Shown in pieces: positions 7,793-20,865 of a DNA stretch of 64,000 nucleotides. The notes under the pieces were generated by a model. It was not told the DNA's origin. It made no database searches and saw only the letters and a list, made by a program, of their open reading frames with translations. Position numbers and translations under genes: made by a program. Source of the stretch: Rhodococcus sp. KBS0724. Its GTDB lineage: Bacteria > Actinomycetota > Actinomycetes > Mycobacteriales > Mycobacteriaceae. The DNA lies in contig NZ_VCBX02000001.1 in the NCBI RefSeq assembly GCF_005938745.2, positions 6,090,501 through 6,154,500 on the forward strand, read 5' to 3'. Numbering within the stretch: position 1 is the stretch's first letter; the number at the start of each line of letters is the position of its first letter.

Positions 7793-8577
7793 CCGAGTTT
7801 GCCGTTCACTGCCACGACCTTCGGGTTGTTCTGGGTGGCAACAACGTTGTCGACGGAATCGGTCTCGACGTTGCAGTAGGTGAATGGGTTGCCGTCGTGG
7901 GGCCGAACGGCGCCGGAAAAACGACGCTGATGCACGCACTCGCCGGATTGATTCCGTCTGCCGGCCAACTCACCGTCTCCGGCCGTAACCCTCGAGATGC
8001 CGGTCGTAAAGCCATGTCTCAAGTTGTCGCGTTGATGCCACAACGGCCCGTGGTTCCGGAGGGTGCAACGGTCACCGAACTCGTTGCGCTCGGTCGAACT
8101 CCGTATCTACGACGCTTCGGCACGGAGACCGCCGCCGATCGGCTGGTGATCAACAACGTCATTCAGCGCCTGGACCTCACGGAGTTTGCCGATCGGCGGG
8201 CAACCGAACTGTCCGGCGGCGAATTGCAGCGAGTGGTTCTGGCCCGCGCGCTCGCGCAGGAGCCGAAGGTCCTGCTCCTCGACGAGCCGACCAGCGCCCT
8301 CGACATCGGACACCAGCAGCAGGTCCTCGACCTGGTGGAGACAATGCGGTTGTCGGACAACATCACCGTGATTGCCGCGATGCACGATCTCACTCTCGCG
8401 GGCCAGTACGGATCGCGCATCGTATTGCTCGATCGAGGTCGCGTGGTGGCAGACGGACCACCGGTCGACGTTCTCCGGTCCGATCTCCTCGGCGAGATCT
8501 ACGGCGCCCGCGTCGAGGTTCTCGATCGACCGAGCGGACCCGTCGTGGTTCCGATCCGCGAGAAGGACGACCGCTGA
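7789..8577 (+). CDS. btuD: Cobalamin ABC transporter ATP-binding protein
   Basis: 262 residues; ATG 7789 overlaps the btuC stop (ATGA). Walker A GPNGAGKTTL (about residue 39), signature LSGGELQRVVLARAL, Walker B VLLLDEPTSALD and the H-loop AAMHDLTLAGQY are intact. It belongs to the FecE/BtuD group and powers the BtuC channel. Confidence 0.92.
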   Translation: MTEFAVHCHDLRVVLGGNNVVDGIGLDVAVGEWVAVVGPNGAGKTTLMHALAGLIPSAGQLTVSGRNPRDAGRKAMSQVVALMPQRPVVPEGATVTELVALGRTPYLRRFGTETAADRLVINNVIQRLDLTEFADRRATELSGGELQRVVLARALAQEPKVLLLDEPTSALDIGHQQQVLDLVETMRLSDNITVIAAMHDLTLAGQYGSRIVLLDRGRVVADGPPVDVLRSDLLGEIYGARVEVLDRPSGPVVVPIREKDDR

Positions 8578-9896
8578 TGGAACTACTCATGCTGGGCACC
8601 GGCGCCGCCGACGGTTGGCCCAACCCCTTCTGCGAGTGCACATCCTGCACCGCCGCGCTCGCAAGCGGCACCGTCCGAGGTCACACAGCGGCCTTGCTGG
8701 ACAATCGAATCCTGCTCGACTGCGGTCCGGAAGTGCCGCGCGCCGCTTCCCGATCCGGCCGCACTCTCGCCGCAGTCGAACATATCCTGCTCACTCACTC
8801 GCATCCCGATCATCTCGGTCCGATGGCGCTGCTCTTCCGGTCCTGGGCCGGCCGCACCGAACCACTGCAGATCCTCGGGCCACCCGACGCCCTTGATCTC
8901 TGCCGCGACTGGGTGGGGCCACACGACCCGGTCACCTTCACTCCGCTTGCCGCCGGCCAATCGATCACGCTGGGTACGTATGACGTTCGCACTCTCGAAG
9001 CGACACACGAAGTTCCGACCCTGCTCTACGACATCACCGACCAAGCCGGTACCCGCATCTTCTGGGCCACCGATACCGGCCCCCTCGCACCGTCAACAAT
9101 CGCCGAGCTCGCGAACGCCTCGTTCGACGCCCTCTTCCTCGAAGAAACCTTCGGGTTCAAGACCGATCACGACACCGGGCACCACGATCTGCCCAGCTTC
9201 GCCCGGACAGTCGCCGCCCTGCGTGAGGTCGGCGCAGTCACAGACCGAACCGACATCGTGGCCGTCCACCTCGGTCACCACAACCCGCTCGAACACGAAC
9301 TGTCCGCAGAACTCCACCAGTCCGGTGCACGAACAGTTCTCGACGGCGCAGCGCTGCACATCGGCTCGCCGGCGCCTGGCCGCACTCTGGTTACCGGTGG
9401 CGCCCGGTCGGGCAAGTCCACCTACGCCGAAGCACTACTGTCCGGGTACCGGCACGTCACATACATCGCCACCGGAGATCCGGACGACGACGATCCCGAC
9501 TGGACGGAACGGGTCGCGTCACATCGCGCGCGGCGGCCGGCAACCTGGACAACACTCGAAACGGTCGATGTAGTCGAAATACTGAACAGTGCAACCGAAC
9601 CCGTACTGCTGGACTGTCTGGGCACGTGGCTGACCGCACGGATGAATTTCCGCGATGTCTGGATGGACGGCAACACCGCCGCGGTTCGCGAAGACATCGA
9701 TCAGTTGGTGGCAGCCTGGAAGTCCTGCCCTGTCCCGATCGTCGCGGTCACCAATGAAGTCGGCAGTGGAGTTGTTCCGGAAACCAAGTCCGGCCGGCTC
9801 TTTCGCGACCTGCTCGGTATGCTCAATGCCCGCATCGCCGATGCGTCCGAGTCGGTTGTCCTGATGACCGCTGGATTACCCACCCGTCTACGCTGA
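8577..9896 (+). CDS. Fusion: PhnP-like metallo-beta-lactamase domain + adenosylcobinamide kinase/guanylyltransferase (CobU)
   Basis: 439 residues; its ATG overlaps the btuD stop (TGATG). Residues 1-265 are a metallo-beta-lactamase-fold hydrolase with the metal motif H74-x-H76-x-D78-H79 and an N-terminal GTGAADGWPNPFCECTSC resembling the zinc-knuckle start of PhnP phosphodiesterases. From residue 272 comes a full CobU/CobP domain: P-loop GGARSGKS (274-281), the HRARRP motif with H316 as the likely guanylated histidine, and EVGSGVVPE. CobU phosphorylates adenosylcobinamide and turns it into AdoCbi-GDP in nucleotide-loop assembly, so this operon imports corrinoids and rebuilds cobalamin. The hydrolase partner activity is unknown. 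Confidence 0.88.
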   Translation: MELLMLGTGAADGWPNPFCECTSCTAALASGTVRGHTAALLDNRILLDCGPEVPRAASRSGRTLAAVEHILLTHSHPDHLGPMALLFRSWAGRTEPLQILGPPDALDLCRDWVGPHDPVTFTPLAAGQSITLGTYDVRTLEATHEVPTLLYDITDQAGTRIFWATDTGPLAPSTIAELANASFDALFLEETFGFKTDHDTGHHDLPSFARTVAALREVGAVTDRTDIVAVHLGHHNPLEHELSAELHQSGARTVLDGAALHIGSPAPGRTLVTGGARSGKSTYAEALLSGYRHVTYIATGDPDDDDPDWTERVASHRARRPATWTTLETVDVVEILNSATEPVLLDCLGTWLTARMNFRDVWMDGNTAAVREDIDQLVAAWKSCPVPIVAVTNEVGSGVVPETKSGRLFRDLLGMLNARIADASESVVLMTAGLPTRLR

Positions 9897-9900
9897 CGCC

Positions 9901-10695
9901 TCAGATCAGTCCGGTGAGACGCCGAGCGCAATCGAGCAGAAAGCCCACCAACTCTCGGTCTTCCACAGTGACACGCTCACAGGAACCCTGGATACACAGT
10001 CCGCCGGCCACCAGGTCGGCACGATCGCGAATAGGCACCGCCAGCGCCGACCGCCCGAGCCGAGATTCCTGATTCTCGAATGCAAACCCCTGCAATCGAA
10101 CCGAACGCAACTGCTCCGCCAGCTTGTCACGATCACCGATCGTGAACTCGGTGAGTCGACGTAGCTCCAGATCGACAAAAAGCCGCTCGTCGTACGCCAG
10201 CAGGAGTTTGCCCAACGCATTTGCATGGATGTTCTTCGAGAGAGTCGTTATCCCGATTATCTCGTGATCGGGGTCCTTGTCGATGAATCGGAGTCGCCCG
10301 GCGTTGAACGACGCAACATGCAGTCCGTATCTCGTGTGGGTACGCATGTCTTCGACTTGTTCGTGGAGTGACGGCGCCGGGCCACTCGTTGTTGCAGCAT
10401 GCGATAACTCAGCCGTACGACGACCCAATGCAAAGCCGGATAGATCCGGCACCCGGACGAGGAATCCTTCTGCCACCAACAGATTCAGCATGCGATATGC
10501 AGTGGCCGAGGGAACCCCGGCGAAGGTCGCGATCTCCTTCGCGGTTGTTCCCGGTCCCAGATGCGCAACTGCCTCGAGCATCCCGAGTGCCTTTTGAACC
10601 GCTTTGGGCTGCTGCCCACTGAAGTGCGATTCTTCGCTGGTCCGTTTGCCGGGTCTGGTACCGGTGGTGGCGCGGTCGGCGCTCACTCGCCCCAC
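9901..10695 (-). CDS. IclR family transcriptional regulator
   Basis: 264 residues: winged helix at about 30-95 (AVQKALGMLEAVAHLGPGTTAKEIATFAGVPSATAYRMLNLLVAEGFL) and a C-terminal IclR effector domain (about 110-260). It follows the APC permease on the same strand and overlaps its 3' end by 13 bases, so the two are one operon. It probably controls the permease and perhaps the mau-like operon beyond it, since all three face the same intergenic region (inference). Confidence 0.88.
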   Translation of the reverse strand: MGRVSADRATTGTRPGKRTSEESHFSGQQPKAVQKALGMLEAVAHLGPGTTAKEIATFAGVPSATAYRMLNLLVAEGFLVRVPDLSGFALGRRTAELSHAATTSGPAPSLHEQVEDMRTHTRYGLHVASFNAGRLRFIDKDPDHEIIGITTLSKNIHANALGKLLLAYDERLFVDLELRRLTEFTIGDRDKLAEQLRSVRLQGFAFENQESRLGRSALAVPIRDRADLVAGGLCIQGSCERVTVEDRELVGFLLDCARRLTGLI

Positions 10696-12221
10696 TCCGG
10701 TAGGTCACCATCTGTAGCAGAACGATCCGGGACCAGACGGCGTCGGCCGTCGTCGCCGATGAGAAGTGTGCCCGCCCCTGGCAGGAGGTCCGCTGTTTCG
10801 AGGCTGTCGAAAGCCCCCACCGCCGTGAGACTCTCAGGACGCACACGTCGGAGAATTGCACTCCAGATCACTCCGGACACTGCGAGCGCTCCAGCGGCAC
10901 ACGGCAACGCCCAGATTCCGTGGACGACACCGTCGAGAATGATGTACACGAGTAACCCGGCCCCGGCGACGCTGACCGACAGCGTGCACAGCCGGGTCAC
11001 CGATGTGTGCTCGCCGATACGGTGCAAGAACTTCCAGGACGCGAAGGCCACCAACGTGTACGCGCAGACGAGGGCAATTTCCACCACTCCGTCGAAAGAG
11101 CCCGAATCATCTCTCACCGCATCGGAAAACAGAAGAACACCAACTGTGCTGACCGAGACAAACGTGAGGACCGCAATGTAGGGGGTTCGGAAACGACGGT
11201 GCATCCGAGCGAGCGACGACGGCAGCACCCGTTCGATGCCCATGGAGTACAACAGCCTCGAACCCGCTTGTGCGCAACCGAGAGTGCACGCCAGCCACGA
11301 GCACGTCATACCGATCTTCACTGCCAGCACCACCCCCGCGCTGGCACCGGATGCCGTCCCTTGGAAGTACGCGCCGACGATGGTTGCGCCGTGCCCCGTC
11401 ATTGCCGCCCACGCGGCGAAAACGAACAGTGACCCGCAGATGATCGGCGAAATCAGCACTGTGCGTGTGACGGTGATCAACGGGCGCTTGGCCTCGGGCC
11501 CGAAGAAGGCTGCACTCTCGAATCCGGCCATGCTCAGAACAGTCAGCATCGCCAGAAACGGAACCACACTCAAGGACGGATTCGGCAACGACACAGTTGT
11601 GGTCGTGTCGGTGCGGGTTGCCAGCATCACCGCGATGATCAAGATCAGAGAACAGCTTTCGATCACGAGAATCGCCCGGGTGGCAAACCGAACACCTCGC
11701 ACTGCTATCCAGGCAACCGCGAGGGCAATCACAACGGTCACGACTGCCGTCGCGAACGGACCACCGACATTTGTACCGATGAGCGAAATCGTGTCCAACA
11801 GACTGGGAACCGCTTGGGCGAACACCGATATCGAGATACCGAGATATCCAAGGACCAACGCGGCTCCTACCAAAAGCGCGCTTCGTGTTCCGGTACCTTG
11901 GAAAACGAAACTGTAGAGCGAACCGGAAGCCGCCAGCCTGCGGGTGAAGTGCGTGATGCAGAGTGCCACCAGAAAGACCGCCGACGTCGTCGCGGCGATA
12001 GCAGCCAAACCTGCGTACCCGGGGCTGTACGTGATCATCCACAGCGCGATGAACACCATTCCCGTAGCCGGGGCAATGGTAGACAACGATTGGCCGAGAA
12101 GATCGATCGGCGTCAGCCGCCGTCGCCCCAGACCGCGCAACGGCGAATACACCGGATCGCTGCCTTGATCCGCACTCTGTGCTCGCGCGAGTGCCGCGCG
12201 CAACGCCTCCGTCACGGCCAT
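10683..12221 (-). CDS. APC superfamily amino acid/amine permease
   Basis: 512 residues with about twelve hydrophobic helices. The N-terminal region (LGRRRLTPIDLLGQSLSTIAPATGMVF) and the GFESAAFFGPEAKRP segment are typical of amino acid-polyamine-organocation transporters. Transcribed divergently from the mau-like operon with 330 bp between. An amine substrate that feeds or competes with the amine dehydrogenase is an attractive guess, not shown by the sequence. Confidence 0.85.
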   Translation of the reverse strand: MAVTEALRAALARAQSADQGSDPVYSPLRGLGRRRLTPIDLLGQSLSTIAPATGMVFIALWMITYSPGYAGLAAIAATTSAVFLVALCITHFTRRLAASGSLYSFVFQGTGTRSALLVGAALVLGYLGISISVFAQAVPSLLDTISLIGTNVGGPFATAVVTVVIALAVAWIAVRGVRFATRAILVIESCSLILIIAVMLATRTDTTTTVSLPNPSLSVVPFLAMLTVLSMAGFESAAFFGPEAKRPLITVTRTVLISPIICGSLFVFAAWAAMTGHGATIVGAYFQGTASGASAGVVLAVKIGMTCSWLACTLGCAQAGSRLLYSMGIERVLPSSLARMHRRFRTPYIAVLTFVSVSTVGVLLFSDAVRDDSGSFDGVVEIALVCAYTLVAFASWKFLHRIGEHTSVTRLCTLSVSVAGAGLLVYIILDGVVHGIWALPCAAGALAVSGVIWSAILRRVRPESLTAVGAFDSLETADLLPGAGTLLIGDDGRRRLVPDRSATDGDLPEWGE

Positions 12222-12551: not shown

Positions 12552-13142
12552 ATGGACTTCACCATCGCTGCCGTATCGGCGATCATCGGGTTTGTCCTAC
12601 TGCTCGCCGGCATCCCCAAGCTGACGGACTACGACGGTGTTCTGCGTTCCGTACGTGGATACAAGGTCCTTCCGAACGGACTGGAAGGACCGGTGGCCCG
12701 GGTACTTCCCATCGCCGAGACCGTGGCGGGCGCACTTCTCGTGACGGGCATTGCCCGGCAGTGGGCGGCCGGCGTTGCCACACTCATGTTCGCGTCGTTC
12801 TTTGTCGGCCTCGTCGTCAACCTTGCGCGGGGTCGACGCGACCTCGATTGTGGATGCTTCGCATTCGGCATCGGCGAGATTCCGCGCATCGGATGGTTCC
12901 ACGCGGTACGTGCCGGAATCCTTGCCGCTGCGTCACTTGTAATCGTGGTGCTCGGCAGCTCCGCGAGCGCGGGCGTGCAGGCAACGGCCGCCGCGCTCGC
13001 ACTCCTCCTGGTTTTGGCGGGCGTCGCCGTCGCGCAGATCCGATCCGTCGTTCATTTCGGCAAGCGCCCGGTCGACGACTACCTCTCGAGTGCCTCCGTC
13101 CGACTGCGTGCCGCCGGCGCCACGTCTCGGTACGGCGTTTGA
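12552..13142 (+). CDS. mauE: MauE-like membrane protein, amine dehydrogenase maturation
   Basis: 196 residues with four to five hydrophobic helices and the motif DCGCF (C100, C102) in a loop, as in the MauE/DoxX-type family. In Gram-negative mau clusters MauE works with MauD to form or shuffle the many disulfides of the amine dehydrogenase light chain. First gene of the operon, with a good ribosome site. The gap to mauD is 43 bases. Confidence 0.82.
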   Translation: MDFTIAAVSAIIGFVLLLAGIPKLTDYDGVLRSVRGYKVLPNGLEGPVARVLPIAETVAGALLVTGIARQWAAGVATLMFASFFVGLVVNLARGRRDLDCGCFAFGIGEIPRIGWFHAVRAGILAAASLVIVVLGSSASAGVQATAAALALLLVLAGVAVAQIRSVVHFGKRPVDDYLSSASVRLRAAGATSRYGV

Positions 13143-13185
13143 CCTTCTCCCTATTCACCGACTGCGCAAAGGCAGGACTTCTACG

Positions 13186-13794
13186 ATGACTACTTTTCTG
13201 CTCGTAGCAACCGTGATTCTCGTGATCGCCGTGGCCGTACTGTTCCTGATGGTTCTCGCACTCGCCCGTGAAATCGGCCGTGTGCAGGTACGTCTCGGCC
13301 CCCTCGGTGCCCGAATGATGGATACCGGCCCCAAGGTCGAACAGGTGGGACCGTCGTTTGCCGGTTTGATCGACCAGGAAGGGCGGACCGTCGGAGTTGG
13401 TGGTCATCGCGACAAGGCGCAGCTCCTGCTGTTCACGGCACCGAGTTGCTCGACCTGCAAGAGCCTGCTTCCCGGCGTGCGGGCCATGGCCAGAGCCGAA
13501 TCCGACCTCGACGTTGTCATCATCTCCGACGGAACCCCGGAAGAGCACCGAGAGTTTCTGGCCGGCAGCGGGATCGGTTCCGAGCTCAGCTACATCGACG
13601 CTCGTGACGTCGGCATCGCCTACCAAGTGGGTACCACTCCGTACGGCGTGATTCTCGACGAGCACGGCAAGATTCGCGGAAAGGGCCTGTGCAACCACAT
13701 GGCCCAGGTCGAGAGCCTGCTCAACGCACTAGAGTCCGGCACCCCCTCACTCCAGCACCTTCATGCGCAGGCTAAGTCGGGCAGTGCGGCCTGA
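13186..13794 (+). CDS. mauD: MauD-like thioredoxin-fold protein
   Basis: 202 residues from ATG 13186, which begins a signal-anchor helix (residues 3-27). A longer reading from 13090 would overlap mauE and start with non-membrane sequence. The exported part is a thioredoxin-like/AhpC-like domain with the redox pair C88-S-T-C91 (TAPSCSTCK). MauD of methylotrophs is needed for stable light chain, which carries many disulfides. Here it sits directly between mauE and mauA, as expected for the same job. Confidence 0.85.
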   Translation: MTTFLLVATVILVIAVAVLFLMVLALAREIGRVQVRLGPLGARMMDTGPKVEQVGPSFAGLIDQEGRTVGVGGHRDKAQLLLFTAPSCSTCKSLLPGVRAMARAESDLDVVIISDGTPEEHREFLAGSGIGSELSYIDARDVGIAYQVGTTPYGVILDEHGKIRGKGLCNHMAQVESLLNALESGTPSLQHLHAQAKSGSAA

Positions 13795-13840
13795 TCACCC
13801 TCAATTCTGCTCGTTCCTTTCACGAATCAGGAGAAAATCG

Positions 13841-14542
13841 TTGGACGACAATGCGTTTCCACAGCACAACATGACAGAGAACCGATATCCGGTGGACGAG
13901 GCAACCGTTCAAGCGCAGGCCGAATGGATGGCGGGTCAAGGCGGTTCCCTGACCAGTCGCACCGGTCGCAAGCTCTCCGAGCGCGTCTCGCGGCGGTCGA
14001 TGATCAGTCGAATCGGTAAGTGGACCATGGGTGTTTCCGGCGTTGCGCTGATCAGCACTCTGCCGGTCACGCGCACCGCGTTTGCCCAAGAAGCCGCCCC
14101 TACCGATCCGGTGCCCGGCCCGGAACCGCTTGTCCCCGTGTACGACGGCAAGGATCCGGCCGAGTGTGAATACTGGCGATGGTGCAACATGGACGGCACA
14201 TCCTGCGCTGCTTGCAACGGCGGCGGTGTCACCACGTGTGCGCCCGGCAGTAAGCCCGGCGCCGAATTCTGGGTTGGATGCTGCACCAATCCCGATACCG
14301 GAAAGACCTACCTGATCGCCTACTACGACTGCTGCGGTGCGCCTTCGTGTTCCAACGCCTTCTGCGGCGAGCCGGATATGCAGGCAGTGATGTACAACCC
14401 GGTTTCCGGCAGCTACGACCAGGAAATCATCTGGTGCGTCTCCGACGAATCTCAGGCGTACACCTGCACCATGGCTCCCATCATCGGTGAGGACTGCCAG
14501 ACCCGTCCGGCAGCACGCCCCAAGGTCGGTGCCGGATCATGA
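13841..14542 (+). CDS. mauA: Methylamine/amine dehydrogenase light chain, TTQ-bearing
   Basis: About 233 residues from TTG 13841, preceded by AGGAG at 13829-13833; ATG 13871 is an alternative. A long twin-arginine leader (SRRSMISRIG) ends near an AFA-Q cleavage-like site. The mature domain closely matches the Paracoccus light chain, as remembered: CEYWRWCNMDGTSC, EFWVGCCTNP, YLIAYYDCCG, EIIWCVS and YTCTMAPIIG. W144 and W198 align with Trp57 and Trp108, which form tryptophan tryptophylquinone; D118 and D163 align with Asp32 and Asp76, and the Tyr/Thr pair near the end is kept. I count 14 cysteines in the mature region. It oxidises a primary amine to an aldehyde and ammonia with the heavy chain. 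Its stop overlaps the next start (ATGA). Confidence 0.9.
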   Translation: MDDNAFPQHNMTENRYPVDEATVQAQAEWMAGQGGSLTSRTGRKLSERVSRRSMISRIGKWTMGVSGVALISTLPVTRTAFAQEAAPTDPVPGPEPLVPVYDGKDPAECEYWRWCNMDGTSCAACNGGGVTTCAPGSKPGAEFWVGCCTNPDTGKTYLIAYYDCCGAPSCSNAFCGEPDMQAVMYNPVSGSYDQEIIWCVSDESQAYTCTMAPIIGEDCQTRPAARPKVGAGS

Positions 14543-15858
14543 GCACCTCACGTACCCGAAAACTCGCCCGGCCTGCCGTCGCGATACTCCCCCTCACCGT
14601 TGTGCTCGCGCTGGCCGGTTGCAGTTCGTCCGACAACGACGAACCCTCCAGCGCAGGTGATGTCACTTATCCCACCGTTCCGTTCACGGCCCCGGGCGAG
14701 GGCATTTCGCTCGGACACGACGATCAGGAAATCGGGGACACCATTCCCGAACCCCTGCACGTCGGCTCGATCACTCCGATTGCCGCTGACCGACTCCTCG
14801 GCGTCGAAGGCGGCTTCGGGGCACTCGAACTCAGCGTCAACGTCATCGATCCGAAAACCGGTGTGGCCGAGAGCCGCATCACCGTCGGACCCGGCATCTG
14901 GGATCCCGTCATCCACGGATTTGTCGGCGACTCCGACGACGATCCGGCAGTGATCGCCGCCGAGGTGTGGCGTCCACGAGGTTCGCGCGGCGCAGCAGAT
15001 TTCACGGTCAGCACCTACTCCGGCAACCTGCTCGAGCCCGCCGAGGTCATGCTCCCGGACGTCGCACGTGTGCATTCCCGCCCCGGCTCCAACGCCGTGA
15101 CTTCCGACGGCAAGTTCTTTGTCACCTGGGACGACGGGCTGTACGGCATCCGCGTTGTCGACTTGGACAAGCAGGAAGCAACCGGAGCTCTTCAGATCGT
15201 CGGATGTGGGCCGTTCACCTGGATGGTCGGGCACGAACTCTACAGCGTGTGTGAGGACACCCGTGAGCTCCTTCAAGTCACGATCAGCGACGACGGAGTC
15301 CCCACCGAGACTGCCCGATCCAAGGTGCTGCCCGACGATTTCGTCTCGGCTCGCAAGGTCACGTGGGCTGCCGACGCGCAGAAAGCGTTGCTGGTCAGTG
15401 AAAACGGTGACGTCTTCGTCTTCGACTTCTCGAACGGACTGCCCAAGGAAGCCGTCAAGCCCATCGGAAACGCGGGTCAGGATTCCGGCCGCTTCTCCGA
15501 GAACGTCATCAACGCCGACGCCACACGTCTGGCAATCGAGTACACCGACAGCGCAATTCATCCGGACTCCGCGCGCGGTGGATCGATTGTCAAGATCGAT
15601 CTCTTCGACGCGGCGACCTTCGCCCCGATCAAGAGCCTCTCGCTCGCAGATCTCGGTCTCACCGATATCGGAAGTACAGCCTTCTCTGTCGACGGCGCCA
15701 CGTTCTACGTACTCGGCACCGGACCAGAGGTCGACGGTTCCGCTCCGCAAAAGATCGTGGGCTACAACGCAACTACCGGTGAGCAGATCAGCTCCGTGGA
15801 CATCTCGGGCAATGTCGGTGATGTCAGTGGGTTGATCACACCAGAAGTGCTCCGATGA
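14539..15858 (+). CDS. mauB: Amine dehydrogenase heavy-chain-like beta-propeller lipoprotein
   Basis: 439 residues with a lipoprotein signal (lipobox ALAGC, Cys28), so it should be anchored to the outer face of the membrane, unlike the soluble periplasmic heavy chain of Gram-negatives. The rest is beta-propeller-like with repeated blades. The order of segments (IVGCGPFTWMVGHELYSVCEDTRELLQV, KVTWAADAQKALLVSENGDVFVFDF, a C-terminal YNATTGEQISSVDISGN) parallels methylamine/aromatic amine dehydrogenase heavy chains. Similarity to known MauB is modest, so the symbol is a best guess. It overlaps mauA and the multicopper oxidase gene by four bases each. Confidence 0.72.
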   Translation: MSTSRTRKLARPAVAILPLTVVLALAGCSSSDNDEPSSAGDVTYPTVPFTAPGEGISLGHDDQEIGDTIPEPLHVGSITPIAADRLLGVEGGFGALELSVNVIDPKTGVAESRITVGPGIWDPVIHGFVGDSDDDPAVIAAEVWRPRGSRGAADFTVSTYSGNLLEPAEVMLPDVARVHSRPGSNAVTSDGKFFVTWDDGLYGIRVVDLDKQEATGALQIVGCGPFTWMVGHELYSVCEDTRELLQVTISDDGVPTETARSKVLPDDFVSARKVTWAADAQKALLVSENGDVFVFDFSNGLPKEAVKPIGNAGQDSGRFSENVINADATRLAIEYTDSAIHPDSARGGSIVKIDLFDAATFAPIKSLSLADLGLTDIGSTAFSVDGATFYVLGTGPEVDGSAPQKIVGYNATTGEQISSVDISGNVGDVSGLITPEVLR

Positions 15859-17444
15859 GTCGTCCCGGATCCGGAGTGGTGATGGGCCGGCGTCGTTTCC
15901 TGAGTTTGGGAGCGCTCGGCGCGGGTGCACTCGGACTCGGTGCAGTGGGGACGATCGCCGGATGCAGTTCCACTGCAGCAACTCCGACGTCCACTGCCGA
16001 TCTCGACTACATTCTGCCCACTGCCCCCGAAGTTGCTGCTGCAGAGTCGGCACGAGCCTGGAACGGAACCACCGCTGCATTTGCCCTGGCTGCCGGATTC
16101 TCGACGGTTGATCTCGGTGGCCGCCTTGTGAACACGTGGACGTACGGGGGCGCTGCGGTGGCTCCGGAACTTCGCCTGAAGTCCGGTGACCGGGTGAATG
16201 TCTCCGTCCAGAACAGTCTCGATGCCGAAACCACCCTGCACTGGCACGGAATTCGAATTCGCAACGACATGGACGGCGCGGCACCCACCACGCAAGCTCC
16301 CATCGCGGCGAACTCGACTTTCGACTACAACTTCGTCGCCCCGGATCCGGGAACGTACTGGTACCACTCGCACAGCGGACTACAGGCCGATCGTGGACTC
16401 TTCGGGGCCATGATCGTCGAAGACCCGAACGACTCCAGCGGGGCCGACGCCGACGCCGTTCTGGTACTCGACGACTGGGTCGACGGATTGGGCACCACGC
16501 CCGATTCCATACTGATGGCACTCAATCCGGCCATTGCCGGCGGTCATGCCGGACATGGCGGGGCCGCATCAACACCCGTCGAGCACACCGAGGGCGACCT
16601 GGCCGTCGCACAGCAGTTGGTGAGCGCCGGCCACGGTTCTTCCGACGTGCTCGGCGGCATGACCCAGCACATCGCGTATCCATTGCACTTGATCAACGGG
16701 CGACCGCCCAACGATCCAGCTGTGGTGACCGCGGCCCCTGGTTCGACCCTGCGACTGCGAATCATCAACGCGGCAGCCGAGACTCCGTACCGATTTGCCG
16801 TCGCCGGTCACGAAATGACAATTGTCGCCACCGACGGTTACGACGTGGAACCGACTCCTGCCGACGCCATCATCGTCGGAATGGCTCAGCGCTACGACGT
16901 ACTCGTGACAGTGAAGTCGGGAACGTGGCCGGTGGTGGCAAAGGTCGAGGGCCGCGACGGATACGCGTCGACGGTCCTGCGCAGCGCCGACGCCTTGACG
17001 CTCTCGAATCCCGACGTGGGTGGTTCGATCTCGGAACTAGATGGCCGACTCGTTCTCGAAAGCGCGCTCCGCCCCGCGGAATCCGCACGCCTCGAGACGA
17101 AGTCACCCGACCGCGACTATCACATCGAACTGATTCAAGCCGGAGATCGTTACGTGTGGGGTATGGCCGGAGCCGATGCGGGCAAGCTCGTGATGAAACA
17201 GGGTGAACGCGTTCGGATCACGATGAAGAACACGTCCACGATGTGGCATCCCATGCACACTCACGGCCATACCTTTGCCGTACCGGATTACGGCGGACTT
17301 CGTCGTGACACCGTCAACGTACTACCCGGGAGCGAACTCGCCATCGAGTTCGACGCCGACAACCCCGGCGAGTGGATGTTCCACTGCCACAATGCCTACC
17401 ACTTCGAAGCCGGAATGACGGCAAATCTGCGTTACGTCCGCTGA
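15855..17444 (+). CDS. Multicopper oxidase, Tat-exported lipoprotein
   Basis: 529 residues; ATG overlaps the previous stop. The signal has the Tat motif RRRFL (12-16) and a lipobox ending at Cys37. All copper motifs are present: H129-W-H131-G, W-Y-H171-S-H173, H465-P-M-H468-T-H470-G-H472 and H510-C511-H512 followed by H516 and M521, giving an intact type 1 site and trinuclear cluster. A Met/His-rich stretch (GGHAGHGGAAS) lies mid-protein. The enzyme should reduce oxygen to water using one-electron donors. Set inside a mau-like operon between the dehydrogenase and cupredoxins, it may be the terminal oxidase for the amine electrons or may help make the quinone cofactor (inference). Confidence 0.92.
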   Translation: MSRPGSGVVMGRRRFLSLGALGAGALGLGAVGTIAGCSSTAATPTSTADLDYILPTAPEVAAAESARAWNGTTAAFALAAGFSTVDLGGRLVNTWTYGGAAVAPELRLKSGDRVNVSVQNSLDAETTLHWHGIRIRNDMDGAAPTTQAPIAANSTFDYNFVAPDPGTYWYHSHSGLQADRGLFGAMIVEDPNDSSGADADAVLVLDDWVDGLGTTPDSILMALNPAIAGGHAGHGGAASTPVEHTEGDLAVAQQLVSAGHGSSDVLGGMTQHIAYPLHLINGRPPNDPAVVTAAPGSTLRLRIINAAAETPYRFAVAGHEMTIVATDGYDVEPTPADAIIVGMAQRYDVLVTVKSGTWPVVAKVEGRDGYASTVLRSADALTLSNPDVGGSISELDGRLVLESALRPAESARLETKSPDRDYHIELIQAGDRYVWGMAGADAGKLVMKQGERVRITMKNTSTMWHPMHTHGHTFAVPDYGGLRRDTVNVLPGSELAIEFDADNPGEWMFHCHNAYHFEAGMTANLRYVR

Positions 17445-17472
17445 CAAGTACGAAGAATCGAGAGGAACTCTC

Positions 17473-17820
17473 ATGAAGAAGCTCGTTCCCGCTTTCCTCG
17501 CCGCCTGTGCGGCTTTGAGTCTCACCGCCTGCAGCAGCAGCGACAGTTCGACGTCGGACGAACCTGCCGTCGTGATCGAGGTGAAGAACATGGCTTACAC
17601 ACCGGCATCGGTCACTATCGAGAAGGGCCAGACCGTCGAGTGGAAGTTCGACGACAGCGGACTCCCCCACGACGTAGTCGGCAACGGTGAACTCGAAGGG
17701 AAACTGAAGAGCGAGTTACTTACCGAGGGAACCTTCTCGTTCACGTTCGACGACGCCGGTACCTTCACCTACCACTGCACGCCCCATCCGATGATGGTCG
17801 GCACCGTGATCGTTCAATAG
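17473..17820 (+). CDS. mauC: Amicyanin-like cupredoxin lipoprotein
   Basis: 115 residues with a lipobox LTAC (Cys20). The mature part is a small blue-copper domain whose end, YHCTPHPMMVGTVIVQ, closely matches amicyanin (YHCTPHPFM...). Copper ligands are H66, C102, H105 and M108. Amicyanin accepts electrons from the quinone of methylamine dehydrogenase, so this should be the direct electron acceptor of the mauA/mauB product. A ribosome site (GAGAGGAA) precedes ATG 17473. Confidence 0.87.
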   Translation: MKKLVPAFLAACAALSLTACSSSDSSTSDEPAVVIEVKNMAYTPASVTIEKGQTVEWKFDDSGLPHDVVGNGELEGKLKSELLTEGTFSFTFDDAGTFTYHCTPHPMMVGTVIVQ

Positions 17821-18143
17821 TGAGGAGGTGGATCGCCGGCTTCGGCCTTGCCGTCGCAGCAACGTGCGTTCCTGCTTGCGGCACAGAAGATCCCGCCCCC
17901 GACGTCGTGGTCGAGATCAGCAATGTTCAGTTCAGCCCGATGGACGTCACCGTCGAGCACGGCGGCACCGTCGAGTGGCGTTTCGACGACGGCGGACTTC
18001 TGCATCACGTGGAATCACCCGGACTGTTCGACAGCGGCATCACCGGAGACGGTACCTTCCGGCACACGTTCGAGAACGCCGGTGTCTACGAGTACTCGTG
18101 CTCCGTGCACCCGTACATGATCGGAGTCATCACAGTGTTGTGA
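17820..18143 (+). CDS. Second small cupredoxin, lipoprotein-like
   Basis: 107 residues from GTG 17820, whose first base is the last base of the preceding stop (TAGTG), so translation is coupled. A hydrophobic leader ends in VPAC (Cys20). Blue-copper ligands can be placed at H62 (or H63), C94, H97 and M100 (SCSVHPYM). It is a clear paralogue of the amicyanin-like protein before it, with the shared pattern VEWxFDD-GLxH. Two in-line electron carriers in one operon suggest a relay to the multicopper oxidase or another oxidase (inference). Confidence 0.82.
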   Translation: MRRWIAGFGLAVAATCVPACGTEDPAPDVVVEISNVQFSPMDVTVEHGGTVEWRFDDGGLLHHVESPGLFDSGITGDGTFRHTFENAGVYEYSCSVHPYMIGVITVL

Positions 18144-18205
18144 CTTTTGGGTTGCGACTTCTGACCCATCACTTTTCGTGAACTACATACAATTCGGAGG
18201 ATCTG

Positions 18206-19042
18206 ATGACTACCGTTCTCTCTCACGGCCCACTCCAGACCGATGTCCCTGACATTCGGCCGACCCTTCACGGCTCGGTCGGCACCGCTACTCGCGCCGG
18301 CTTGATCGCGGCAGGTGCAGCAGCGGGTGCCGGCATCGCGCTCGTGGCGGCACCTTCTGCTACAACAGCTTTGACCACTGCGGTTGTCGGAGCCGGACTG
18401 GTTACCTCACTGGCTGCCAACTGGTCGACGTGCGGAATGTCGGTTGCCGGAGTTGTTGCCGCACCGAAGCAACCTGACCGCAAGGGATCTTCGACTCCGG
18501 TACGCCGACTCGGTTGGCACGCCCTGGGTTCCGTCACTACGGGAGCCGTCACCGGCGCCCTGATCGGCGCTCTCAGCGCGGCGGTGTCGGGTTACATCCC
18601 GATCGGCTGGGCGTTGGGCGCCTGGGCCGTTGTGGCACTCGCATATGGTCTGCACGAGCTGGGTGTTCTCACGATGCCGACTCCGATGCGGCGCCAACAG
18701 CTTCCGCGCCATCTGCGCCGCACCATGGCGCCGTGGAAGGTCTCACTGATCTTCGGTGCGATCATCGGGCCCGGATTCCTGATCTTCATCCGCTCGAGTG
18801 CGTACTATCTCTTGGCGCTCGGCGTCATCGCCTCGGGTTCACCGGCTCTCGGCGCTGCACTGTTCACCGTCGTTTCCCTCGGCCGCTGCATGCCGAGCCT
18901 CGCGGCAATCGTGCACACCAAGCGCGGTGGCTCGATGCCCGGTTTCCTCTCGATCATGTGCGTCGTGGACCGTCGAGTGCAGAGCATCACGGGCGCTGCG
19001 CTGATCGCACTGGGAGCGTTTGCTGCCTTCGCGTTGATCTGA
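18206..19042 (+). CDS. mauF: MauF-like polytopic membrane protein
   Basis: 278 residues with about six hydrophobic helices; the N-terminal 35 residues are cytoplasmic-looking. A cysteine (NWSTCGMSVAG) near the end of the second helix, a Gly/Ala-rich GAVTGALIGALSAAVSGYIP helix and the loop ELGVLTMPTPMRRQQLPRHLRR resemble MauF of methylamine-utilisation clusters. MauF is needed for amine dehydrogenase assembly, by an unknown mechanism. Last gene of the operon; an AATTCGGAGGATCTG ribosome region precedes ATG 18206. Confidence 0.72.
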   Translation: MTTVLSHGPLQTDVPDIRPTLHGSVGTATRAGLIAAGAAAGAGIALVAAPSATTALTTAVVGAGLVTSLAANWSTCGMSVAGVVAAPKQPDRKGSSTPVRRLGWHALGSVTTGAVTGALIGALSAAVSGYIPIGWALGAWAVVALAYGLHELGVLTMPTPMRRQQLPRHLRRTMAPWKVSLIFGAIIGPGFLIFIRSSAYYLLALGVIASGSPALGAALFTVVSLGRCMPSLAAIVHTKRGGSMPGFLSIMCVVDRRVQSITGAALIALGAFAAFALI

Positions 19043-19116: not shown

Positions 19117-19932
19117 TCAGTAGGTCGATGCACCCGCATCGACCGCGAGGTGCTGGGCCGTGACGAAGGAAGCCTCGTCGGAGGCCAGGAACAGCACCGC
19201 ATTGGCCTGATCTGCCGGCTGCGTCAGGGAATCCTGCGTCGACGTGATGAGCATGCCACCGACCGAAGGATTGCCCTCGATCGCCGGACCGAAGTGTGCC
19301 TGCGCACTCGCATCTCCCATCGCGGTTTCCACGCCGCCGGGGTGAAGACTGTTGACACGAATCTTGTGCTGGGCCAACTCATGCGCAAGGGCTTCGGTCA
19401 TGCCGGTCAATGCATGCTTACTGGCCACATAGGGCAGCAGAAACGGCAGCCCTTTCAGTCCCGCAACCGAACTGGTCAGAATGATCGACCCGCCACCGTT
19501 CGCAATAAGGTGAGGAGCCGCAAGACGAATCGTATTCCATGTACCGGTGAGGTTCGTGCTGATGGTCTCCTCCCAGATCTCAGAAGTGACCTGATCCCAT
19601 GGCGCGATGTAACAGACGCCGGCATTACCGACAACGATGTCGAGATGCCCGAAACGGTCGACACCCCGGTCAATGGCAGCGCCGAGCGCCGGCGCGTCGC
19701 GGATATCGACAGCCGCCGATTCGATGCTGCGCCCGGTCTTCTCGACCAGACGGACAGTCTCAGCGAGGTCGTCGACGGTCGCATGGGGGTACTGAAGGCC
19801 GGGTATGGGCCCGGCGATGTCGACAGCGATAATGTCGGCGCCCTCCTCGGCGAGTCGCAGCGCATGCGCGCGGCCCTGACCTCGAGCGGCTCCGGTAACG
19901 AGGGCCACCTTGCCTTCGACACGACCTGTCAT
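19117..19932 (-). CDS. Mycofactocin-coupled SDR oxidoreductase
   Basis: 271 residues, classical SDR: NAD-binding VTGAARGQGRAHALRLAEEGADIIAVDIAG, NAG motif (VVGNAGV), catalytic S-Y-x3-K (SSVAG ... YVASKHA). The ARGQGRAHA signature and long insertion after the first beta-alpha unit are typical of carveol-dehydrogenase-like enzymes that keep their NADH bound and need mycofactocin for turnover. Substrate unknown, probably a secondary alcohol. It lies 42 bases downstream of a paralogue on the same strand. Confidence 0.87.
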   Translation of the reverse strand: MTGRVEGKVALVTGAARGQGRAHALRLAEEGADIIAVDIAGPIPGLQYPHATVDDLAETVRLVEKTGRSIESAAVDIRDAPALGAAIDRGVDRFGHLDIVVGNAGVCYIAPWDQVTSEIWEETISTNLTGTWNTIRLAAPHLIANGGGSIILTSSVAGLKGLPFLLPYVASKHALTGMTEALAHELAQHKIRVNSLHPGGVETAMGDASAQAHFGPAIEGNPSVGGMLITSTQDSLTQPADQANAVLFLASDEASFVTAQHLAVDAGASTY

Positions 19933-19974
19933 GATTAATCTTTCCTTTCCAGTGTTGTGAACCCGTGCCGTCGG

Positions 19975-20802
19975 TTAGAGCTGACCACCCGCGTCGACGG
20001 TGTGCGTGGTTCCCGTGACATAGCGTCCGCTGTCTCCGGCAAGGTAGAGCACGGCTTCAGTGATGTCGGACGATTCGAGCGCTGGCACCGGCAGAGTATT
20101 GAGCGTCAAGGCGGCTTCCTCGAAGTCGGCCCGTGTCGGCTGGGTGAGGTCCGGCCGGAAGAGTTGGTATGTGGCGTCGTTGAGGATCATGTCGGTGGCG
20201 ACGGTTGTCGGATGTATCGTGTTCACTCGGATATTCTGCGGCGCAAGTTCTTTGGCGAGCACCTTCATGAAGCCGACCAGACCCGCCTTGGCTGCCGAGT
20301 AGTGTGCGGTATTCGCGTTTGCTTTCAGAGCCGCGAGTGAGCTCGTGATCACGACAGAACCGCCGCGACCACCCGCGATGATGTGCGGTACGGAAGCAAC
20401 GCAGGTCTTCCACACTCCGGTGAGATTGACGTCGATCATCGTCGACCAGGTCTCCTCGGACATCTCGAGCGTCGGAGCCGGCACCGAGATACCGGCATTG
20501 GCGAGCACGATATCGAGCCGACCGAGCTCGTCGATACCAGCATCGACTGCTGCTTTGAGACCGTCGAGATCCCGCACGTCGACTTCGCGGGCGACAATAC
20601 GCCGACCGAGGGCTTTGACCTCCCGCTCGGTCTCGGCGAGGTCGTCCGCAGTGGCGGTCGGGTACGGCACGGTGTCGACCTGACGACAGACGTCGATCGC
20701 GATGATGTCGGCACCTTCTTGTGCGAGCCGTAATGCATGGCTGCGTCCCTGGCCCCGGGCAGCACCGGTGACGAATGCAACCTGACCATCGAATTGCCCC
20801 AT
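19975..20802 (-). CDS. Mycofactocin-coupled SDR oxidoreductase (paralogue)
   Basis: 275 residues from ATG at 20802 (GAAAGG ribosome site upstream; a 15-codon longer reading lacks one). VTGAARGQGRSHALRLAQEGADIIAIDVC, LANAGISVPAP and the catalytic Ser/Tyr/Lys (SSLAAL ... HYSAAKAG) are visible. Very like R. erythropolis carveol dehydrogenase in motif spacing and C-terminal end (ITEAVLYLAGDSGRYVTGTTHTVDAGGQL). Upstream gene of a two-SDR operon divergent from the TetR regulator. Confidence 0.88.
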   Translation of the reverse strand: MGQFDGQVAFVTGAARGQGRSHALRLAQEGADIIAIDVCRQVDTVPYPTATADDLAETEREVKALGRRIVAREVDVRDLDGLKAAVDAGIDELGRLDIVLANAGISVPAPTLEMSEETWSTMIDVNLTGVWKTCVASVPHIIAGGRGGSVVITSSLAALKANANTAHYSAAKAGLVGFMKVLAKELAPQNIRVNTIHPTTVATDMILNDATYQLFRPDLTQPTRADFEEAALTLNTLPVPALESSDITEAVLYLAGDSGRYVTGTTHTVDAGGQL

Positions 20803-20865
20803 GAAAGAAAACCTTTCGGCACCTGCAGCGCCGACCTTGTGCGGCACCGCCTCGTACCACGCAGG

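Follow-up and report, generated by a model that had tools for sequence, protein, structure and literature searches.

A putative tryptophylquinone amine dehydrogenase operon with copper proteins and without MauG in Rhodococcus sp. KBS0724

The stretch of DNA analysed here, hereafter the window, comprises 64,000 nucleotides of Rhodococcus sp. KBS0724 (contig NZ_VCBX02000001.1, positions 6,090,501 to 6,154,500 of the forward strand). The host genome is 7.25 Mb in length, consists of 3 contigs and is given as 100% complete. Positions 12552 to 19042 of the window hold eight genes on the plus strand, separated by intergenic gaps of −4 to +62 bases. In this order, they code for MauE, MauD, a tryptophan tryptophylquinone (TTQ) type light chain, a heavy chain, a multicopper oxidase (MCO), two cupredoxins and a MauF-like protein. 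An earlier note on the window had claimed eight linked genes forming a Mau-like amine dehydrogenase cluster in an actinobacterium. All eight were confirmed on a single strand with tight spacing, and the assignment is upheld by family, profile, fold and leader evidence. Conservation was assessed with one scan of genome contigs, which yielded 39 loci, 38 of them actinobacterial and one of proteobacterial type from a bin labelled Klebsiella.

The light chain gene (13841..14542, +) starts with a TTG at 13841, upstream of which a ribosome-binding-like AGGAG was found, and encodes 233 aa including a long leader with SRR; the alternative ATG at 13871 would yield 223 aa. The protein is a member of PF02975 (1.1e-31) with both TTQ tryptophans and the active-site aspartates in place, and aligned with the solved light chains of methylamine dehydrogenase (MADH) and aromatic amine dehydrogenase (AADH) across the catalytic part (best E value 1.3e-32). 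The residues D118, W144, D163 and W198, as named in the earlier note, are correct when numbered from the TTG at 13841, and align with the matching positions of solved MADH light chains, which presumably include those that form TTQ. Compared to the MADH equivalog model TIGR02659 (5.7e-35), the score of 120.8 bits is below the cut-off of 196.85; the AADH light chain of a Pseudomonas aeruginosa plasmid (L053) also falls below it (167.2), while that of Paracoccus passes (399). Public databases already label Gram-positive members as 'methylamine dehydrogenase light chain'.

In 36 of the 38 actinobacterial relatives, each of the four motifs that surround the TTQ tryptophans and the active-site aspartates was recognised. 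The Planctomonas light chain (L046) fails because GYYD replaces AYYD, its aspartate still being there, and the frame of L049 ends before the last motif. Except for L049, every actinobacterial light chain has 14 cysteines, and the SRR leader is present in 38/38. W188 is only nearly invariant in the light-chain alignment A1 because P0040, a row with a visibly shifted stretch, was kept in. In a tree calculated without L049, the actinobacterial light chains form one clade with a support of 100/100 on a long branch; the program warned about long branches.

The heavy chain gene (14539..15858, +) encodes a predicted lipoprotein of 439 aa. No Pfam or NCBIfam family matched it, including PF06433, which as a control detects AADH-type heavy chains down to 9.9e-27. 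Despite this, the heavy-chain-like propeller claimed earlier held up in profile comparison (probability 98) and in fold comparison, where beta-propellers of the MADH/AADH type took ranks 1–27 in Foldseek and ranks 1–22 in VIA-align. In public entries, this protein is nearly always a 'hypothetical protein' with no domain.

MauE (12552..13142, +) is a membrane protein of 196 aa belonging to the MauE/DoxX family (PF07291, 7.7e-26). Its gene was found in 37 of the 38 actinobacterial loci, the remaining one (L047) being truncated by the contig end. MauE is not informative on the substrate, as it also occurs elsewhere in the genus (28/28 genomes). MauD (13186..13794, +) has 202 aa, is thioredoxin-like and membrane-anchored, and shows 42% identity to Paracoccus MauD (tblastn). 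It matches TIGR02661 (1.6e-48, with a frame one codon longer, from 13183) with 164.7 bits, which is below the cut-off of 188.6. Since both MauD and the light chain score below their NCBIfam equivalog cut-offs, they are regarded as divergent. The MauF-like membrane protein (18206..19042, +; 278 aa) matched no Pfam or NCBIfam family, and its helical model (pLDDT 78.4) gave no PDB fold match at 0.001. Pairwise comparison with Paracoccus MauF yielded 30% identity over 84 residues, with an E value of 1e-12 for that single comparison. The gene is present in 35/35 actinobacterial loci. In Kineococcus (L043), the mauF frame contains one stop and is located between the light- and heavy-chain genes; it was omitted from A5.

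Both cupredoxins of the cluster match PF00127 or PF13473. Cupredoxin 1 (17473..17820, +; 115 aa, motif CTPHPMM) is amicyanin-like, with amicyanins being the best 14 of 39 solved matches; the score against the NCBIfam amicyanin model is 54.3 bits, below the cut-off of 110.2. The cluster thus encodes an amicyanin-like candidate acceptor of its own. Cupredoxin 1 is present with intact ligand motifs in 36/36 loci. Cupredoxin 2 (17820..18143, +; 107 aa, motif CSVHPYM; PF13473, 2.2e-6) forms a separate frame in 32 of 35 loci, with L045 having another weak cupredoxin frame, and C-x2-H-x2-M is retained in 32/32 of the separate frames.

The MCO (15855..17444, +; 529 aa) has three Cu-oxidase domains with an axial Met and matches the Cu-oxidase families (best 1.1e-39); in the PDB, it matches laccases, FET3 and CueO. 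The score against the copper-resistance subfamily TIGR01480 (4e-76, 256.7 bits) is below the cut-off of 478.95. The ligands of the type 1 (T1), T2 and T3 coppers are complete, with all four motifs including the axial Met in 35/35 relatives, and a His-rich loop, GGHAGHGG, is nearly conserved in alignment A4. The protein shares all four copper motifs with three-domain MCOs of the CueO, CopA and laccase types, but differs in being a predicted twin-arginine translocation (Tat) lipoprotein encoded inside an amine dehydrogenase operon with adjoining cupredoxin genes.

The earlier note had also claimed lipoprotein leaders on the heavy chain and both cupredoxins, and a Tat/lipobox leader on the oxidase. 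Lipobox-like leaders were found by regular expression on the heavy chain in 38/38 actinobacterial loci, on cupredoxin 1 in 36/36 and on cupredoxin 2 in 29/32, in line with that claim. Most relatives of the oxidase have the twin arginine (34/35) and a lipobox-like site (31/35, by regular expression; L047 is partly masked).

Actinobacterial carriers were found in Rhodococcus, Prescottella, Nocardia, Actinacidiphila, Kineococcus, Microbacterium, Corynebacterium, Planctomonas and Dietzia; among the named loci, those of Rhodococcus globerulus and R. erythropolis are close kin of the host. The recurrent gene order is mauE, mauD, light chain (A), heavy chain (B), MCO, cupredoxin 1, cupredoxin 2 and mauF, with Kineococcus as an exception, having mauF between A and B. 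A survey of gene order had been proposed earlier, with loss of synteny counting against the cluster; synteny held over the 38 actinobacterial loci, which rules out chance association. The system is rare: in a draw of 396 genomes spread evenly over the phylum, one genome exceeded the family cut-off, namely the host itself. Within Rhodococcus, 12 of 28 genomes carry the light chain.

The MCO accompanies the mau cluster in 35 of the 36 actinobacterial loci whose contig extends beyond the heavy chain. Among the 28 Rhodococcus genomes, exactly the 12 with the light chain have an MCO with 76% identity or more, while the other 16 reach a maximum of 46%. Over 33 loci (L043 and L047 left out), pairwise distances correlate at 0.879 for MCO and mauA, 0.888 for MCO and mauB and 0.923 for mauA and mauB. 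Three of the 12 genomes also hold an MCO paralog of 61% identity, which sits among ABC-transporter genes in a locus devoid of mau genes and is adjoined by a cupredoxin (approximately 52%) in both copies compared and in L124. In a comparison of 30 MCO loci, 12 were mau-linked with cupredoxins and 2 were paralogs with a cupredoxin, while the 16 more distant loci showed no such cupredoxin inside the short flanks covered (16/16). The pairing at the paralog locus and its lack at the distant loci indicate that the MCO and the cupredoxin form a recurring unit. In L124 (2685-9165; genome G012, same genus), a periplasmic-binding-protein-type lipoprotein, a Tat lipoprotein MCO, a cupredoxin lipoprotein and two exporter-type ABC transporters are encoded in a row, a few kilobases away from the mau cluster. 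This gene set is reminiscent of a locus for siderophore or metal uptake that has an MCO-cupredoxin pair of its own.

The MauG family, PF03150, had no match in the whole host genome, whereas Paracoccus MauG as a control was detected at 8.2e-45. Likewise, there was no match to PF03150, the one family tested for this purpose, in the genomes of the 38 actinobacterial light-chain carriers (38/38), some of which may be incomplete assemblies. A MauG hidden elsewhere in the genome was considered and rejected: the host had none, and the 39 carriers yielded one match, in the Klebsiella-labelled bin. With tblastn, Paracoccus MauG, MauJ, MauM and MauN found no counterpart in the window at a threshold of 1e-3. 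To our knowledge, MauG is responsible for TTQ formation in known systems. Since the cluster lacks MauG and the genome lacks PF03150, the host must build the cofactor by another route.

For comparison, 13 proteobacterial genomes with a light-chain match were drawn from a set of 398, of which the marginal G725 and G756 were dropped. PF03150 is present in 8 of the resulting 11 carriers and lacking in G519, G651 and G720, so that the idea of a missing MauG as a trait confined to Actinobacteria was rejected. A MauG match near the light chain was found in only one of 21 proteobacterial loci (Paracoccus), while a same-strand frame with CxxCH was found there in all 21, the one in Paracoccus being MauG itself. 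These 21 loci are 20 distinct ones, as L051 and L093 denote one place counted twice. Four of the CxxCH frames were compared with Pfam and matched cytochrome c families, the one of L089 scoring below the cut-off. Applied to the 38 actinobacterial loci, the same rule picks out one, L033, whose CxxCH lies upstream of the start codon of the MCO gene and is a chance motif. Judged from the predicted frames, the actinobacterial loci are distinguished by having the MCO and no c-type heme frame at all. Lacking both PF03150 and a genuine CxxCH frame, the actinobacterial clusters appear to have swapped heme for copper. The three loci L083 (G651), L086 (G519) and L091 (G720) are TTQ loci in PF03150-free genomes in which a frame with a single CxxCH adjoins the light chain, and some Proteobacteria may likewise form TTQ without MauG. 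The bin labelled Klebsiella pneumoniae (G066) holds four different PF02975 places (L051/L093, L090, L092), which is unlike any Klebsiella known to us; it is probably mislabelled or mixed.

Compared to the mau cluster of Paracoccus denitrificans (NC_008688, L052), counterparts of mauF, B, E, D, A and the amicyanin gene are present. The Paracoccus order is mauR-FBEDA-amicyanin-J-G-MN, with a diheme MauG, whereas the Rhodococcus cluster lacks G, J, M and N, follows a different gene order, has the MCO and the second cupredoxin in addition, codes for lipoprotein leaders and lies next to a permease gene and an IclR gene. The earlier note was right to place the MCO and the second cupredoxin outside the classical cluster, as Paracoccus has neither. 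Its description of a classical mau set plus extra copper proteins did not stand, since MauG is missing from the cluster and PF03150 from the genome. Proteobacterial aau-type loci such as L053 share the B-E-D-A core and have no MauG match, but one or two CxxCH frames follow directly after the light chain (cytochrome c-552 in L053); no c-type cytochrome gene adjoins the light chain in Rhodococcus, and the actinobacterial clusters have no such frames. Quinohemoprotein amine dehydrogenase (1jju) is likewise a tryptophylquinone enzyme with a beta-propeller subunit. Based on its gene content, the cluster is best described as a divergent, MauG-free and heme-free variant, and not as the classical mau set with additions. 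A literature search found nothing on actinobacterial TTQ enzymes or on an MCO associated with TTQ, subscription papers being mostly beyond its reach.

Taken together, the TTQ-type light chain, the MADH/AADH-type heavy chain, MauE and MauD, the MauF-like protein and the Tat and lipoprotein leaders are supported by sequence and fold comparison, and the operon very probably encodes a TTQ amine dehydrogenase. On balance, we lean towards a membrane-anchored enzyme on the outer face of this single-membrane cell that is wired with copper proteins only. The light chain would be exported folded, its many disulfides would be formed by MauD and MauE, and the Trp-Trp quinone would form outside the cell, built without MauG. 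A primary amine would be converted to an aldehyde and ammonia, and cupredoxin 1 would take up the electrons from TTQ. In most lineages, the MCO would be next in line and reduce O2 to water, possibly with cupredoxin 2 as an intermediate carrier between cupredoxin 1 and the MCO. The role of the MCO as electron acceptor is favoured because of the genus-wide co-occurrence and the recurring MCO-cupredoxin pair, and we consider it about evenly balanced.

Several points weigh against this reading. Gene linkage alone is no proof of electron transfer, the light chain scores below its NCBIfam equivalog cut-off, and the actinobacterial light-chain branch is 3.5 substitutions long. One locus with the MCO (L042) has a single cupredoxin. 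In Planctomonas deserti (L046), the cluster reads mauE-D-A-B-cupredoxin-mauF and has all TTQ residues without the MCO or a second cupredoxin, the genome containing only a distant MCO (E value 1e-6). This intact light chain indicates that the MCO is not obligatory everywhere and that another acceptor must be possible. When 398 genomes of the Planctomonas family were searched for further relatives without the MCO, Planctomonas alone matched. Its light chain branches first in the clade with a support of only 87/73, so that loss of the MCO is indistinguishable from its never having been gained.

That Planctomonas retains cupredoxin 1 without the MCO would fit a different scheme, in which cupredoxin 1 passes electrons to the usual respiratory chain and the MCO acts as a cuprous oxidase that protects or loads the copper proteins of the operon. 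A role in copper handling is also consistent with the TIGR01480 score, although it is below the cut-off, and with the His-rich loop of the MCO. However, the operon has no copper exporter, chaperone or copper regulator, and the MCO tracks the light chain (12/12 versus 0/16 genomes) more strictly than expected for general copper defence; we regard this scheme as possible but rather unlikely. The MCO might instead replace MauG and perform some or all of the six-electron oxidation of the precursor tryptophans to TTQ. It is the sole dedicated O2-using enzyme of the cluster, occurs in 35 of 36 testable clusters, and PF03150 is absent from the host and from all 38 actinobacterial carriers. Nevertheless, the Planctomonas light chain is intact without the MCO or PF03150, the MCO-cupredoxin pair also occurs without mau genes, and the 3 of 11 proteobacterial carriers without PF03150 suggest that TTQ can form without MauG independently of the MCO. 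The axial T1 ligand is Met in 35/35, and the potential of Met-type T1 copper is roughly 0.3–0.5 V. A passage of one source puts tryptophan oxidation by MauG at approximately 1 V (PMC6405878). As the T1 potential falls short of this value and Planctomonas lacks the MCO, a maturation role is considered quite improbable.

A shade less likely still is a combination of both roles, in which the MCO and the cupredoxins do the work of MauG and also accept the electrons of the enzyme, forming a heme-free, O2-reducing amine oxidase complex on the surface. The missing MauG, the long branch and the scores below equivalog cut-offs could also mean that the light chain is devoid of TTQ, either because the cluster has been recruited for another redox task or because its cofactor is a different crosslink. 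This is very unlikely in our view, given that the two tryptophans, the two aspartates and 14 cysteines have been preserved, that 36/38 light chains pass all motif tests, and that MauD, MauE, MauF and the amicyanin-like protein are retained alongside.

Upstream of the copper-associated operon lie two genes on the minus strand, a divergent amino-acid/polyamine-type permease (10683..12221; PF13520, 2.4e-11) and an IclR-type regulator (9901..10695; PF01614, 2.3e-17). The pair is a syntenic neighbour in 31 of the 34 actinobacterial loci with a long enough flank. Solved relatives of the permease are only weak ones (cationic amino acid transporter 1, 4.6e-5). A recent acquisition of foreign DNA was rejected, as the G + C content of the cluster (0.62–0.63) lies within that of the window (0.59–0.64). 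On the other side, two tandem short-chain dehydrogenase/reductase (SDR) enzymes adjoin the cluster at 19117-20847 (minus strand), both above the cut-off of TIGR03971 (mycofactocin-coupled SDR). A frame at 8577-9896, directly after an ABC ATPase frame, combines a metallo-beta-lactamase-fold domain (PF12706) with a CobU cobinamide kinase domain (PF02283).

Based on these results, the heavy chain can now be given a name in place of 'hypothetical protein'. The carriers include culturable Gram-positive bacteria without the MauG family, in which an alternative formation of the Trp-Trp quinone becomes testable by deletion of single genes. A quinone dehydrogenase joined to an MCO would represent a possible heme-free route for amine oxidation at the cell surface that ends in water.

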